Shown one piece after another: positions 56,372 through 61,687 of a DNA stretch of 64,000 nucleotides (position 1 is the stretch's first letter; the number at the start of each line of letters is the position of its first letter). Both the position numbers and the translations under genes were made by a program. The notes under the pieces are model-generated. The model made no database searches. It was not told the origin of the DNA and saw only the letters and a list, made by a program, of their open reading frames with translations. Source of the DNA: Christiangramia sp. OXR-203 (GTDB lineage Bacteria; Bacteroidota; Bacteroidia; Flavobacteriales; Flavobacteriaceae); assembly GCF_034372165.1 (NCBI RefSeq), contig NZ_CP139698.1:806001-870000 (forward strand). Reading direction: 5' to 3'.

Positions 56372-57508
56372 TTATAATTTATTGAAGAAAGATTGCAGGA
56401 ACTGCGGGTGAAACATACTTTGCATGATCTTGATCTCTTCGGAAAATGTGGTTTCTTCATCCAGAAATTTGAATATATTCTGAATACTGTTTTTAGTATA
56501 GAACTTAGTGAACAATGATTCACCAAGATCATTCCGTTTTTCCAGAACATCCAGAAATATAGCATCATACCGCTGAAATCTCTTGCTGAACAAACCTTGC
56601 GACGGCCTCTTACCACTTTTGATATTTGCCAGCAGTTTGCTTACTTTTCGTTCAGTACTCTTAAATGAATACCCTGAAGATGCCTTTACCCAACCGCCGG
56701 CCGTTCCTATCTTCGTAATATGTTTAGAATTGTGCTTATGGAAAGGGTAGTCGGTCATTGGGATAATGCCAGTTTCACTTTCAGCAATTTTATAATTATC
56801 GATTTTTAAAACTTCTCGAATATATTTTTCCAGTTGCTCATCATATACTTTTCCTTCAGTTAGGAAGGGAGTAAAAAAGGTGAACTCTATAAGAGCGGAT
56901 TTAGTAGATACGGGCAGAACATAAGTGAAACAAGTACTGTTCCTGTACTTGACCCGATAATCCATCATAGTAAAGCGTTCAGGGTCAAATCGAGCTTCCT
57001 GCGTTTCAATACTAATACCTTTAAAATGCTGGTATATTTTAGCACATCCAGAATCATCTCTGTATGAATCTGGTGGTCTGCTATCAAAAAAATGCGTGGC
57101 AGTGTAAGAGTCCTTTATACCTAAAGCTGTTCGTGTAACTTCATCGATCCTGCTAATCTTATCCTGGATGAAGTACGTGTCAGGATCCTTTGTTAATTCG
57201 CTTTTCGCATATTCATAAAAGTCGATGGACCTTAGCATCTTATAGGAATAAGGTGCAAAATCCAGTTCTTTCTCTACGGAATCTGCTATAAATGATCCTT
57301 GCTGCCATTCCTTCTGAATAAGCTCGTCCCATTTACCTGAACCTTCTTCCCAGAAGCACCAGGTTTTGTCGTTATCATTTTTAAGTGAAGGGTCAATAAT
57401 TGCAATCTTTTTTCCTTTAAAAAAAATGTCCTTCCTGATTTCTAGAGCAAGCTGTAGCCCAGCCAGTCCACCACCAACGATGATGTAGTAATAGTCTGGC
57501 GTGATCAT
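56372..57508 (-). CDS. crtY: Lycopene beta-cyclase
   Basis: 378 aa flavoprotein that closes both ends of lycopene to beta-rings, giving beta-carotene. Dinucleotide-binding motif YIIVGGGLAGLQLALEI at residues 8-24; FFDSRPP, the conserved D-x-R-P motif of the family; PMTDYPFHKHNSKHITKIGTAGGWVKASSGYSF. Last gene of the carotenoid operon, 13 nt after crtZ. Length and motifs are typical of Flavobacteriaceae CrtY, not the CrtL or heterodimeric types. Confidence 0.93.
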   Translation of the reverse strand: MITPDYYYIIVGGGLAGLQLALEIRKDIFFKGKKIAIIDPSLKNDNDKTWCFWEEGSGKWDELIQKEWQQGSFIADSVEKELDFAPYSYKMLRSIDFYEYAKSELTKDPDTYFIQDKISRIDEVTRTALGIKDSYTATHFFDSRPPDSYRDDSGCAKIYQHFKGISIETQEARFDPERFTMMDYRVKYRNSTCFTYVLPVSTKSALIEFTFFTPFLTEGKVYDEQLEKYIREVLKIDNYKIAESETGIIPMTDYPFHKHNSKHITKIGTAGGWVKASSGYSFKSTERKVSKLLANIKSGKRPSQGLFSKRFQRYDAIFLDVLEKRNDLGESLFTKFYTKNSIQNIFKFLDEETTFSEEIKIMQSMFHPQFLQSFFNKL

Positions 57509-57521
57509 TTAGGGGTAGATT

Positions 57522-57977
57522 TTATTTTCTGAAATATTTAAAAGGTACGAATAACATTCCGAAGCATTCGCCGTCATCTTTTCCAAGATGTTTATGGTGC
57601 ATTTTATGCGCTCGTCTTATACCCTTTGCGTATTTATTATTCGCATTTCTAAAGATCTTAAACCTTTGATGTATAAAAATATCGTGGACTGTAAAATATG
57701 TGATCCCGTAAGCGAGAATCCCAAGTCCAATAGGAAGGCCAAACCATACATCTTCATACCTCCAGAGCAGGAAACATCCAATACTTACAAGAGCGTAAAA
57801 AACGAAAAAAAGATCGTTTCGTTCCCACCAACTACTATGGTCTTTGTGGTGGTGATCCTTATGTAATTTCCACAAGAAACCGTGCATCACATATTTGTGC
57901 GTGAACCACGCCATTCCCTCCATTATCATAAAGGTTCCAAAAAATACTAAAAGCCATAATATCACTTGCATCATCAT
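57522..57977 (-). CDS. crtZ: Beta-carotene 3-hydroxylase
   Basis: About 151 aa. Integral membrane di-iron hydroxylase adding 3-OH to both beta-rings, giving zeaxanthin. All four histidine motifs are visible: HKYVMH, HKDHH, HDIFIH and HKMHH. Four hydrophobic segments. Three ATG codons in a row (57977, 57974, 57971) follow the crtB stop after only three bases, TAATTGATGATGATG; a TTG just before them could also be used, so the exact start is uncertain by two or three residues. Confidence 0.95.
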   Translation of the reverse strand: MMMQVILWLLVFFGTFMIMEGMAWFTHKYVMHGFLWKLHKDHHHKDHSSWWERNDLFFVFYALVSIGCFLLWRYEDVWFGLPIGLGILAYGITYFTVHDIFIHQRFKIFRNANNKYAKGIRRAHKMHHKHLGKDDGECFGMLFVPFKYFRK

Positions 57978-57980
57978 CAA

Positions 57981-58820
57981 TTATATTAAATTCAATCTAT
58001 AAGAAATATAAGATTTTGCCAGTAGTCCTGCTTTTTGATAATTCGGAACCCGAACCCGGCAATTTTTAATCTCCAAAGATGGGACGTTTTTAAGTTTCTG
58101 AAGTAATTTTCTGTAATATATATAAGCAGTATACACACCAAACTTAGCTTCAACCGGAAGATGAGCGATCCCGCTTAAGCCTTTACTGAAGTCTTCTTCA
58201 ATTTCAGCAACGATCTGTTGTTTATTTACTTCGTCTAATTTTGAAAGGTCCACATTTGGGAAGTAGGATCTACTAAGATCTTCATAATCTGCTTTTAGAT
58301 CCCGTAAGAAATTCACTTTTTGGAAAGCCGAACCGAGACTCATGGCGGAAGATTTTAATTCCTCGTACTTCGCCTGATCACCTTTTACAAAAACTTTTAA
58401 ACACATAAGACCAACAACATCTGCGCTACCATAGATATATTGGCGGTACTCTTCCATGCTCAGATATTCAGATTTATGAAGATCCAGTCGCATGCTATCC
58501 ATAAATGCCTTGTAAAGTTGAGGTTCTATTTCGTAACGGTGTACCGTTTCCTGAAAAGCATTCAGAATAGGATTAAGAGATATCCTTTGATCCAGCGCTT
58601 TATATAGATCGGCTTCAAAATCTTTAAACAATAGTTCCTTGTCATAATCATGAAAGCTATCCACGATCTCATCTGCAAATCTTACAAATCCGTAAATATT
58701 ATAAATATCCTGCCTGATAGAGGGGGCCAGCATCTTAGTGGCCAGACTAAAAGAAGTACTGTAGCTATTGGTAACAGTTTTGCTACAGGACCGGGATACC
58801 GTATCAAAAATCGCTTTCAT
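57981..58820 (-). CDS. crtB: Phytoene synthase
   Basis: 279 aa. Head-to-head condensation of two geranylgeranyl diphosphates to phytoene. First Asp-rich region FVRFADEIVDSFHDYDKELL (DxxxD) and second NFLRDLKADYEDLSRSYFP. The N-terminal YSTSFSLATKMLAP is the class signature. Three nt after crtI; the stop touches the crtZ start region. No GGPP synthase gene is in this window. Confidence 0.95.
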   Translation of the reverse strand: MKAIFDTVSRSCSKTVTNSYSTSFSLATKMLAPSIRQDIYNIYGFVRFADEIVDSFHDYDKELLFKDFEADLYKALDQRISLNPILNAFQETVHRYEIEPQLYKAFMDSMRLDLHKSEYLSMEEYRQYIYGSADVVGLMCLKVFVKGDQAKYEELKSSAMSLGSAFQKVNFLRDLKADYEDLSRSYFPNVDLSKLDEVNKQQIVAEIEEDFSKGLSGIAHLPVEAKFGVYTAYIYYRKLLQKLKNVPSLEIKNCRVRVPNYQKAGLLAKSYISYRLNLI

Positions 58821-58823
58821 AAA

Positions 58824-60290
58824 TTAGTTTTGTTCATTTTGTTGTATCAGTCCAGCTGCAAGTTTCCCAGATATAAGGGATGGTGGCACACCTGGTCCGG
58901 GAACGGTTAACTGCCCGGTAAAATATAATTTTTCCACCTTTTTACTTCTAATTTTAGGTCTTAAAAATGCTGTCTGGAAAAGTGTATTTGCCATTCCATA
59001 GGCATTCCCTTTATAGGAATTATAGGCTTCCTTAAAGTCCTTTACGCAGAAGGATTCTTTAAATATAATATTTCCTTTAATTTCCTGCCCTGTAAGAGCC
59101 TGAAAACGTTCAATTATCATATTAAAGTAGCGCTCCCTAATTTCATCGGTATCTTCAAGGTCTGGGGCAAGCGGAATTAAGAAAATTCCTGCTTCCATGC
59201 CTTCCGGAGCAACTGTAATATCAGTTTTTGAAGGGAAACTGGCATAGAATAGTGGATCTTCTGGCCAGGCAGCTTCATCATAGATGGCTTTAGCATGATC
59301 CTTAAAACTACTGTCAAAGAATAAGGTGTGGTGAGATACATTCTTCAGTTTTTTGTCAAAGCCTACATAAAAGAGTAGGGATGAAGGTGCAAAGGTTTTC
59401 TTCTTCCAGTACTTTTCAGAATATTGTCTATCGAATTCCGGAAGCAAAGTTTCTGTATGGTGATAATCTGCTCCAGAAAGTATAATATCAGCGGGATAAA
59501 GTTTCCCATCTATTTTTAGCGCTTTTGCTGCACGATCTTCAGTAGTAATAGCCTCGACATTAGCATTCAGGTGAAACTTAACGGCTAAGGACTCTGCAAG
59601 CTCTGTAATTCCTTCAATAACCTTGTACATGCCTCCGTGAGGATGCCAGGTGCCCAATCCAAAGTCGGCATAATTCATAAAACTATAGAAAGCCGGAGTA
59701 TCACTAGGCTTTGCTCCCAGGAACAACACCGGGAACTCGAGGATCTGTCTTAATTTCTCATTAGAAAACTCTTTTCGAACATCTCCACTAATATTTGTAA
59801 AAAAGCGGCCTAATCTTGTTGCGGTCGCAGTTGTAACGAGTTCCATAGGGGAAACGCCAGGACGATAAACCAGGTCTTTAATGGCTATATCATAATTGTC
59901 GCGTGCTTTCGCAATGAACTTTTTTAGTTTTTCTGAGCTTCCTTTTTCAACCTCTTCAAAGGTTTCATAGATTTCTTGCAGGCTACCAGGAATTATAACA
60001 GAATCATCTTTACCGAAGTAAACTTCATAAGCTGGATCTAATTTGTTCAATTGGAAATAATCTGAAGCTGATTTTCCGAAGTCAGAAAAGAAACGTTCAA
60101 AAACATCTGGCATCCAGTACCAGGTAGGACCAATATCGAAAGTAAATCCGTCACGTTTTAATTGACGGGCTCTACCACCTACAGTATCATTTTTCTCGAA
60201 TACTTCTACATCATAACCGGCCTGAGCCAGATAACAGGAAGCTGCGAGAGATGAAAAACCAGATCCTATGATATTTATCTTTTTTGGCAT
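58824..60290 (-). CDS. crtI: Phytoene desaturase (CrtI type)
   Basis: 488 aa FAD enzyme converting phytoene to lycopene. N-terminal FAD motif IIGSGFSSLAASCYLAQAGYDVEVFEKND followed by VGGRARQLKRDGFTFDIGPTWYWMPDVFE. C-terminal motif LYFTGQLTVPGPGVPPSLISGKLAAGLI, the bacterial-type desaturase signature. Nine nt after the regulator gene. Because no other desaturase is present, four desaturations by this enzyme are assumed. Confidence 0.95.
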   Translation of the reverse strand: MPKKINIIGSGFSSLAASCYLAQAGYDVEVFEKNDTVGGRARQLKRDGFTFDIGPTWYWMPDVFERFFSDFGKSASDYFQLNKLDPAYEVYFGKDDSVIIPGSLQEIYETFEEVEKGSSEKLKKFIAKARDNYDIAIKDLVYRPGVSPMELVTTATATRLGRFFTNISGDVRKEFSNEKLRQILEFPVLFLGAKPSDTPAFYSFMNYADFGLGTWHPHGGMYKVIEGITELAESLAVKFHLNANVEAITTEDRAAKALKIDGKLYPADIILSGADYHHTETLLPEFDRQYSEKYWKKKTFAPSSLLFYVGFDKKLKNVSHHTLFFDSSFKDHAKAIYDEAAWPEDPLFYASFPSKTDITVAPEGMEAGIFLIPLAPDLEDTDEIRERYFNMIIERFQALTGQEIKGNIIFKESFCVKDFKEAYNSYKGNAYGMANTLFQTAFLRPKIRSKKVEKLYFTGQLTVPGPGVPPSLISGKLAAGLIQQNEQN

Positions 60291-60299
60291 TGGGGAATT

Positions 60300-61202
60300 T
60301 TAGAGACTATTTATAAAATCTTTAATTGATGTCTGTACTTTAATATTTTCAGGAAGAGCAGCCTGATCAATTTCTTTCGTTCTTTGTCCAAATAGCAAGA
60401 ATTCTCTTGGCTTATCCTGGCATAACTTCTCCTGAAAATCATTTACAAATTCTGAAACATCTGTATTCACGGGAGAGATGGTAAGATAACTTACGAATAC
60501 CGGATCATTATGGATTTTCATGAGGTAGTCCATGTTGTCTAATGGTAAACTTGGACCAACGTAAATAACATTTTTACCTGCGTTTAAAAGCTCATAATTT
60601 AGATACAAAATCCCAATGTCATGGATTTCATTGTAAGGGAGAAAAAGGACGTATAATTTGTCATTATTCTCTTCCTCGCCATTGGATTTTAATTCGGCAA
60701 TATTAATGTAGATCTTTTGTTTAATAAGTTCTATGATATAATGCTCATGAATTGGTTTGATGGTATCAGTCTGCCATAGCAAACCAATTTCTTCAAGCAG
60801 CGGAATAAAAACATCGTAGAAAACATCTCTAAAGGATAATTTAGAGACCAGATCATTATAAGTCTTTTGAAACAGCCTGTCATCAAAATTCATCATGGCC
60901 AGCTTGAAAGCATTTTTAGCTCTGTTCTCTACACTTGAAGAAGCTGAAATTCTTCTTACAAGCGCATGAACTTCATCTTCTTTCATTTTGGAGATACGTG
61001 ATATCTTATACCCATGAATATTCAAAAAGGAAATATTAAGGAGCTTCTGTAAGTCTTCACCATCATAAGTACGAATATTGGTATCTGTTCGCTCAGGATC
61101 GAGAATTTTATATCTCTTCTCCCAGATTCTAATGGTGTGAGCTTTAATTCCACTTAAGTGCTCCAGGTCCTTGATGCTAAAATTTTGTTTGATATGTTCC
61201 AT
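60300..61202 (-). CDS. CarH-type B12-binding MerR regulator of the carotenoid operon
   Basis: 300 aa. MerR helix-turn-helix at the N-terminus (FSIKDLEHLSGIKAHTIRIWEKRY, ~8-31). Residues ~95-175 form the helical cap and ~183-300 a Rossmann cobalamin-binding domain. Both CarH hallmarks are present: W143-x9-E153-H154 (WQTDTIKPIHEH), and E192-x-H194-x2-G197 (NEIHDIG), whose His is the lower cobalt ligand. These fit an adenosylcobalamin-dependent repressor released by light. The residue after the Trp, which I recall as His132 in Thermus CarH, is Gln144 here. First gene of regulator-crtI-crtB-crtZ-crtY. Confidence 0.9.
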   Translation of the reverse strand: MEHIKQNFSIKDLEHLSGIKAHTIRIWEKRYKILDPERTDTNIRTYDGEDLQKLLNISFLNIHGYKISRISKMKEDEVHALVRRISASSSVENRAKNAFKLAMMNFDDRLFQKTYNDLVSKLSFRDVFYDVFIPLLEEIGLLWQTDTIKPIHEHYIIELIKQKIYINIAELKSNGEEENNDKLYVLFLPYNEIHDIGILYLNYELLNAGKNVIYVGPSLPLDNMDYLMKIHNDPVFVSYLTISPVNTDVSEFVNDFQEKLCQDKPREFLLFGQRTKEIDQAALPENIKVQTSIKDFINSL

Positions 61203-61218
61203 ACTTCTTATAAGCTAT

Positions 61219-61301
61219 TAAACAAATCTAAACAAAATTTAGAGTGAAAGTGATAGAGAAAAGTTAAAATGTTTAATAAAACATAAGTTACATTAAACAA
61301 A
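61219..61301 (-). promoter_or_regulatory. Repeated TAAACAAA boxes upstream of the carotenoid operon
   Basis: TAAACAAA occurs on the plus strand at 61219-61226, 61229-61236 and 61294-61301; the first two are exactly 10 bp apart. A TAGATTTG -7 box (61223-61230, minus) overlaps the first two, and TCTAAA-n5-TTTAGA (61227-61243) is a perfect inverted repeat over the second. This is what operator repeats of a CarH/LitR-type repressor bound over its own promoter would look like. No TTG was found at the -33 distance. Confidence 0.6.
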
Positions 61302-61337: not shown

Positions 61338-61360
61338 ATTGTATATTGTCTTTAAAGTAG

Positions 61361-61444
61361 TACCCGAGGCGGGACTTGAACCCGCACGCCCTAATGGACA
61401 CATGGCCCTCAACCATGCCTGTCTACCAATTCCAGCACTCGGGT
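61361..61444 (-). tRNA. tRNA-Leu (anticodon GAG)
   Basis: 84 nt. Acceptor ACCCGAG/CTCGGGT with discriminator A, anticodon stem CATGG/CCATG around loop TTGAGGG, long class II variable arm, T-arm GCGGGTTCAAGTCCCGC. CCA is not encoded. Last gene of the Lys-Lys-Leu operon. Confidence 0.95.
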
Positions 61445-61514
61445 ATGAGTTTATGGAATGTCTCCATAGGGCTGGTCACCAAGTTTCGATTAAAAATCGA
61501 ATCGAGTAAAATAG

Positions 61515-61587
61515 TGATCTGGCTGGGGCTCGAACCCAGGACCCTCTCCTTAAAAGGGAGATGCTCTACCAACTGAGCTACCAGATC
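61515..61587 (-). tRNA. tRNA-Lys (anticodon TTT), copy 2
   Basis: 73 nt. Acceptor GATCTGG/CCAGATC, discriminator A, anticodon stem TCTCC/GGAGA around loop CTTTTAA, T-loop TTCGAGC. CCA not encoded. Identical to the copy at 61615. Confidence 0.96.
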
Positions 61588-61614
61588 TTGAACAATAAAA
61601 TAAGAACTTATTTG

Positions 61615-61687
61615 TGATCTGGCTGGGGCTCGAACCCAGGACCCTCTCCTTAAAAGGGAGATGCTCTACCAACTGAGCTACCAGATC
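61615..61687 (-). tRNA. tRNA-Lys (anticodon TTT), copy 1
   Basis: 73 nt, identical in every base to the downstream copy; the spacer between them is 27 nt. First gene of the operon, about 35 nt after the promoter. Confidence 0.96.

Follow-up and report, generated by a model that had tools for sequence, protein, structure and literature searches.

The closest described counterpart of the regulator analysed here is CarH from Thermus thermophilus (PDB IDs: 5c8d/5c8e/5c8f and 3whp), with which it shares a MerR domain, a helix bundle with the Wx9EH motif, a Rossmann domain with ExHx2G, the half-site TnnACA, and adjacent carotenoid genes, at an identity of about 20%. Unlike Thermus CarH, however, it has Gln in place of His132, a degenerate GG motif, and an inverted pair of half-sites rather than tandem direct repeats, and it lies inside the crt operon and has many predicted targets. 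In PMC9304148, the CarH half-site is given in tandem 11-bp repeats (nnnnTnnACAn), and Myxococcus CarA and the Myxococcales CarH proteins are likewise crt regulators with TnnACA repeats in tandem. As described there, CarA works without B12 and does not have the Trp of Wx9EH that is invariant in the orthologs of our regulator. A further likeness is found in the class II LitR proteins of Pseudomonas (PplR/PmlR), whose light-inducible targets include PhrB, FolE, SDR, and CryB according to PMC9758184, although class II LitR comprises the helix bundle only and needs a LOV protein, whereas the present regulator has both B12 subdomains. Lastly, other lineages hold B12 photoreceptor domains without His132, and PMC11796333 gives the 132-equivalent as Gln in SasPcob (8j2w), Arg in Chloracidobacterium CtMerR (8jbs/8jbt), and Tyr in AbDPcob, with a Glu of CtMerR making a water-mediated cobalt contact. 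The modelled cobalamin domain of our regulator matches CtMerR and SasPcob structurally with a Z of about 18. To our knowledge, the photocobilin SasPcob is not a MerR regulator.

Our analysis covered a 64,000-nt stretch of the genome of Christiangramia sp. OXR-203 (hereafter the window), in which a 300-residue protein encoded on the minus strand (60300..61202) was characterised as a CarH-like regulator by its ORF, phmmer, Pfam, a profile search, an AF2 model, Foldseek, and profile–profile alignment. Its MerR_1 domain (PF13411; residues 8–74, 60981..61181, minus strand) carries the recognition helix RIWEKRY, and both MerR_1 and B12-binding_2 exceed their Pfam cut-offs, while PF02310 was not reached in the same search. 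In phmmer comparisons with PDB chains, W143, Q144, E153, H154, and H194 align with W131, H132, E141, H142, and H177 of Thermus CarH (3whp and 5c8d; E 2e-10), and a 46-sequence profile search returned Thermus CarH chains as the best relatives in the same register (E 1.5e-22). On the minus strand, and with phmmer, profile–profile, and ortholog alignments behind each assignment, W143 lies at 60774..60776, Gln144 (codon CAG) at 60771..60773, E153-H154 at 60741..60746, and the lower-ligand motif E192-I-H194-D-I-G197 at 60612..60629. Thus, as the sequence-only reading had described, W143-x9-E153-H154 and E192-x-H194-x2-G197 are both present, corresponding to Wx9EH and D/ExHx2G, and Gln144 faces His132 in three agreeing alignments (phmmer, profile search, and an independent profile–profile alignment). 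Modelled with AF2 from its own sequence and those of 43 named relatives, the protein reached a mean pLDDT of 85 and a pTM of 0.72; the model's top Foldseek matches are full-length CarH proteins (E 1e-13), and its cobalamin domain superposes on CarH with a Z of about 20 and a rmsd of 2.6 Å over 195 residues. Of the features by which CarH and class I LitR are recognised, a MerR domain with an RxWERRY-like recognition helix and (in the model) a four-helix bundle plus a Rossmann cobalamin domain are found here. At the SxT/V ... GG end of the B12 motif, S238 is aligned and the second Gly (272) is present, with Phe271 at the first Gly, a degeneracy absent from the earlier account. His at the 132 position, a frequent though not universal trait of CarH and class I LitR, is replaced by Gln144, and we did not take this His as defining, since photoreceptors with Arg, Gln, or Tyr are known (PMC11796333). 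Against the NCBIfam CarH equivalog (NF052513), the regulator scores 60.4 bits with a cut-off of 400, so we file it as CarH-like and not as an equivalog. On the best reading of these comparisons, it would belong to the CarH/LitR superfamily as a distinct Bacteroidota clade, set apart from known CarH by the missed equivalog score, the missing His132, the degenerate GG motif, and another operator layout.

With a homolog threshold of E 1e-10, 120 of the 149 family genomes were positive, and 126 regulator ORFs, less five (four duplicates and one truncated), gave 121 aligned sequences from 122 distinct places. Residue 144 is Gln in 102 of the 107 closer orthologs (His in three, Leu in two), and Gly (8), Gln (4), Ser (1), or Thr (1) in 14 more distant family homologs. 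The 80 named relatives, each of them assigned to Flavobacteriaceae or carrying the label flavobacteria or Bacteroidetes, have Gln in 78 cases and His in two. Outside the family but within the class, 33 homologs have Leu (9), Gln (7), Met (5), or other residues (12), with His in none. We therefore rejected Gln144 as a peculiarity of the window protein. Thinning at 85% reduced 244 sequences to 208, and in the tree of these the flavobacterial His tips are single and sit within a Gln background, with deep support low and that of the flavobacterial clade at 0.14; the wide alignment excludes sequences L254 and L255. From these sequences, His132 is absent as a rule in the flavobacterial lineage, and the occasional His looks derived. 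Nor is the Gln substitution new, as a published B12 photoreceptor with Gln at this position exists, and in PMC9304148 the His occurs in many, not all, myxobacterial CarH proteins. According to PMC10442372, light brings Thermus H132A to a state with His177 and water on cobalt, in which it remains for the most part a tetramer, the loss of His132 impairing tetramer release. By analogy with this behaviour, the Gln144 substitution would matter for how DNA is let go. The faster-reversing photocycle that had been expected from Gln144 finds no support in the Thermus variant, whose mostly tetrameric light state turns the question to how DNA release is triggered. In six sampled genomes of a neighbouring family of the order (G160, G240, G351, G406, G417, and G420), no regulator was found at E 1e-12; since the carotenoids of Chryseobacterium lacus are described as inducible by light with neither car nor lit genes present (PMC7064467), another light regulator may exist in that family. 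The Bizionia protein MliR, another conceivable ortholog, was dismissed because it is 109 residues long and has no effector domain.

As for cobalamin, the window's genome is equipped for AdoCbl, with a PduO-type adenosyltransferase, three B12-binding proteins that pass the cut-off, a fourth that falls short of it, and one cobalamin riboswitch. Of the 149 family genomes, 116 have both regulator and adenosyltransferase, four the regulator alone, 21 the adenosyltransferase alone, and eight neither (Fisher p 2e-4, ignoring phylogeny and incomplete genomes). Moreover, W143, E153, E192, and H194 are each invariant in the 107 family orthologs, which argues that the motif is not due to chance. This invariance and the co-occurrence speak against a regulator of the same operon that works independently of B12, binding DNA constitutively and being relieved by a partner protein or oxidative stress, for which Myxococcus CarA and class II LitR are precedents (PMC9304148 and PMC9758184). 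CarA is without the Trp (PMC9304148), and this mark of the CarA type was seen in none of our 107 orthologs. Such B12 independence would fit the degenerate GG motif, where residue 271 is Leu in 72, Phe in 12, and Met in 12 of the 107 orthologs (residue 272 is kept in 105), and the failure to reach PF02310; the GG motif counts against easy B12 binding. It would also fit the replacement of H154 in 13 of the 107 (His 94, Arg 11, Ser 2) and the four genomes with intact-motif regulators (G008, G048, G062, and G064), two of them 99% complete, in which neither a PF01923 adenosyltransferase nor PF02572 was found. Weighing these points, we regard a B12-independent regulator as unlikely, and AdoCbl sensing as likely from the sequence comparisons, though not settled. 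In the two 99% complete genomes G008 and G064 (L006 and L111), the intact-motif regulator is accompanied by palindromes of the kind described below; AdoCbl may be taken up there, or the protein may be used without it. The H154 replacements come from genera in the region of loci L029, L070, L080, L083, L086, L095, L105, and L113 (genomes G118, G090, G063, G042, G101, G105, G039, G074, G073, G114, G012, G076, and G078). All 13 have the adenosyltransferase (PF01923), so a tie between H154 loss and adenosyltransferase loss was rejected, and palindromes are present where examined.

The regulator leads a crt operon on the minus strand, just as had been proposed, with a CrtID-type phytoene desaturase CrtI starting 9 bp after it (58824..60290; above the NCBIfam NF058655 cut-off), the phytoene synthase CrtB (57981..58820; PF00494, SQS_PSY), a probable beta-carotene hydroxylase CrtZ of 152 residues (57522..57980), and the lycopene beta-cyclase CrtY (56372..57508; PF05834). 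The 152-residue protein has no Pfam or NCBIfam match; its assignment as CrtZ, and hence zeaxanthin as the product, is deduced from its His-rich sequence and synteny. The likely regulon is far wider than zeaxanthin, the regulated product of the earlier proposal. By synteny, the crt operon is the regulator's neighbour in nearly all ortholog loci, and the regulator abuts crtI in the window's own clade. Just upstream of the operon, 61360–61687 holds a tRNA-Leu(gag) and two near-identical tRNA-Lys(ttt) genes on the same strand, and in many relatives the sequence before the regulator is enriched in tRNA-like words.

Upstream of the orthologs, TTTGTTTAA is enriched (132 of 186 regions versus 1.8 expected from shuffles, which here are blocks of two-base units and not strict dinucleotide shuffles), and the conserved element is the inverted repeat TTGTTTAA-N16-TTAAACAA, the arms of which contain TnnACA, the published CarH half-site. 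In the window, pattern searches gave the candidate operator TTGTTTAA-N16-TTAAACAT (61270..61301, minus strand; 15 of 16 arm positions), the sole match without mismatch to the 31-base pattern, with a shuffled window averaging 0.48 matches at up to two mismatches. At 104 of 187 crt loci, a copy with at most one mismatch either precedes the regulator or falls in the gap to the following gene, as against none of 187 in shuffles. Two-base block shuffles also served as control for these crt-locus copies, for the inverted repeat, for the rhodopsin upstream regions, and for the half-site counts given below. The TnnACA core is present in the window mainly as this inverted pair; two more half-sites, direct and 10 bp apart (61218..61236, plus strand; half-site as given in PMC9304148), overlap TAGATTTG (61223..61230, minus strand), which by its sequence and by regular-expression distance fits the flavobacterial −7 box TAnnTTTG (PMC9723704). 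A simple sigma-70 scan was uninformative (14 found versus 15.5 expected). In most other genera, the palindrome lies between regulator and crtI and includes the −7 box, and TAnnTTTG is inside 70 of the 77 copies situated between regulator and next gene. In the window's clade, it lies upstream of the regulator, 39 nt above the −7 box and not on it. The analogy with CarH and the covering of the −7 box in most genera point to a repressor and not an activator, although with the main palindrome further up in the window's clade, activation is possible there.

Across the 149 genomes, an exact 31-base search found TTGTTTAA-N16-TTAAACA without mismatch in 106 of the 108 ortholog-bearing genomes, in five of the 12 with only a distant homolog, and in two of the 29 with no homolog found (Fisher p 5e-24 for palindrome versus ortholog presence, phylogeny ignored). 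Those two, G079 and G147, are 81% and 73% complete, and their regulator contig may have been lost from the assembly; the ortholog genomes without the exact palindrome, G092 and G020, have none before their rhodopsin either. In the 108 ortholog genomes, there are 552 exact hits (both strands can count) versus 13 for the reversed pattern used as control. The palindrome could in principle be the site of a different regulator, for instance the TetR-like protein encoded near some sites or one of Crp/Fnr type, whose presence alongside the CarH-like gene is incidental, as the link between site and protein consists of co-occurrence and proximity, which gain or loss by whole clades could also yield. 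Against this, the arms contain TnnACA, and the half-site co-varies with the recognition helix of the CarH-like protein itself. Where the helix is RKWE(S/T/E)RY, TTNGACAA is found at nine of nine crt loci, including one outside the family (L222), and TTAAACAA at three of the nine; where it is RIWEKRY, TTAAACAA is found in 176 and TTNGACAA in 19 of 187 orthologs. From this pairing, half-site and recognition helix change together, and R25, E28, R30, and Y31 of the helix are kept in all 107 family orthologs. We accordingly rate ownership by another factor as very unlikely. The second regulator clade (L036, L038–L040, L042–L045, and L222), with TTNGACAA half-sites in place of TTAAACAA, has mostly Gly at position 144 and is usually divergent from crtI.

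If the palindrome is the operator of the CarH-like regulator, its predicted targets go well past crt. In the window's own genome, eight distinct places match the pattern when one mismatch is allowed. A perfect palindrome lies 33 nt before an SRPBCC-SDR-photolyase operon (PF03441, PF00875), and others lie 17 nt before MsrA-FolE, 30 nt before a TetR-like gene with a UbiB/ABC1 kinase, 4 nt before a DUF2805 gene, and 25 nt before a 55-residue ORF. The site at CheB/CheR is weak and 270 nt away, and one near sodA has no gene start nearby; these two of the eight, being without a close gene start, count against our preferred interpretation. Neighbours were sampled at 71 loci in 27 genomes from among the matches listed, and target counts refer to this sample. 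A gene start lies no more than 300 nt from 75 of its 78 distinct sites and no more than 100 nt from 67 of them, and none of the sites is inside an ORF of at least 120 residues, as compared with 34%, 16%, and 80%, respectively, for random positions in 10-kb crt loci. Recurrent neighbours in the 27 genomes, again among the matches listed, are the TetR-like gene (13 genomes) and its kinase (12), a fasciclin protein (8), SRPBCC (6), and photolyase as second gene (4). These non-crt targets, along with the 552 exact sites, make it most improbable that the protein is an ordinary class I CarH, novel solely by its Gln and controlling carotenoids alone, which was the sequence-only view and which accords with the crt operon adjoining at nearly all loci. 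The predicted targets overlap with those of Pseudomonas LitR, though the organisms are far apart. Separately, a protein of about 142 residues, with no Pfam or NCBIfam match, follows the palindrome by about 29 nt in eight of the 27 sampled genomes, among the matches listed (L306, L314, L323, L326, L331, and L362).

Rhodopsin genes are present in 29 of the 149 genomes and absent from that of the window. In G034, a perfect palindrome lies between a rhodopsin (PF01036) and a beta-carotene 15,15'-dioxygenase (PF15461) gene, and further palindromes precede a desaturase-like protein and a GHMP kinase. We scored the best palindrome within 250 nt upstream at 27 of the 29 rhodopsin places (26 and G055), leaving out G067, which has no upstream sequence, and G104, a fragment. 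Among the 21 scored genomes bearing the ortholog, 14 have a palindrome with at most two mismatches before proteorhodopsin (none in seven, one in two, two in five), and the other seven have no such site (three mismatches in three, at least four in four). At the six scored loci without a regulator homolog, the mismatches are 0 (G147), 1 (G079), 2 with a spacer of 17 (G055), 4, 5, and 5, and the low values of G147 and G079 belong to incomplete, palindrome-rich genomes.

From the fold, the motifs, synteny, operator–regulator co-occurrence, operator–helix co-variation, and the sites before light-related genes, all computed here, we infer DNA binding, repression, cobalamin binding, and light release. 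Our preferred interpretation, which we hold to be probable, is that of a His132-less, CarH-like repressor that senses AdoCbl and governs a broad light-protection and phototrophy regulon via inverted CarH half-sites. Points that weigh against it, beside those on cobalamin and on the two remote palindromes, are the low equivalog score, the impaired tetramer release of Thermus CarH lacking His132, the distance of the window's crt palindrome from the −7 box, and the seven of 21 ortholog-bearing genomes with no site before proteorhodopsin. The MerR domain would bind the inverted half-site pair TTGTTTAA-N16-TTAAACAA, and in the dark the AdoCbl-bound oligomer would occupy the inverted TnnACA pair of the promoter, where, with the −7 box inside the pair in most genera, binding would block RNA polymerase. 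AdoCbl would most likely be the sensor, with H194 below and W143, E153, and H154 as the cap. Light would remove the adenosyl group, break the contact with W143/E153/H154, and so release the DNA; with Gln at residue 144, cobalt would take water or another ligand and not a second His. The regulator's own operon, the photolyase operon, MsrA-FolE, the TetR-UbiB kinase genes, and fasciclin would thereby be silenced in darkness and derepressed by light, and the dark repression may extend, in some genera, to proteorhodopsin and the beta-carotene dioxygenase Blh.

Proteorhodopsin expression in marine flavobacteria is reportedly light-induced, and flavobacterial light transcriptomes are reported by Kimura 2011 and Palovaara 2014. 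Among the papers searched on CarH/LitR with proteorhodopsin, flavobacteria, operators, and photolyase, and on proteorhodopsin with MerR or B12-binding proteins, a set with few subscription titles, no title or abstract shown proposes such a regulon. The present analysis gives a candidate regulator, a candidate operator, and a set of predicted targets open to gene-by-gene testing. In its widest form, a claim whose chances we see as evenly balanced, one AdoCbl photoreceptor without a bis-His state would be the master light switch across much of the Flavobacteriaceae, acting through a conserved inverted-repeat operator on carotenoids, photolyase, pterin synthesis, oxidative repair, and, in genomes that have them, proteorhodopsin and its retinal enzyme, and tying phototrophy to B12 supply. 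If true, this would constitute a natural large-scale experiment on CarH-type sensing without the second histidine. It would also name what switches proteorhodopsin on in light in marine flavobacteria, and would link proteorhodopsin to B12, a vitamin that many of these bacteria have to import.
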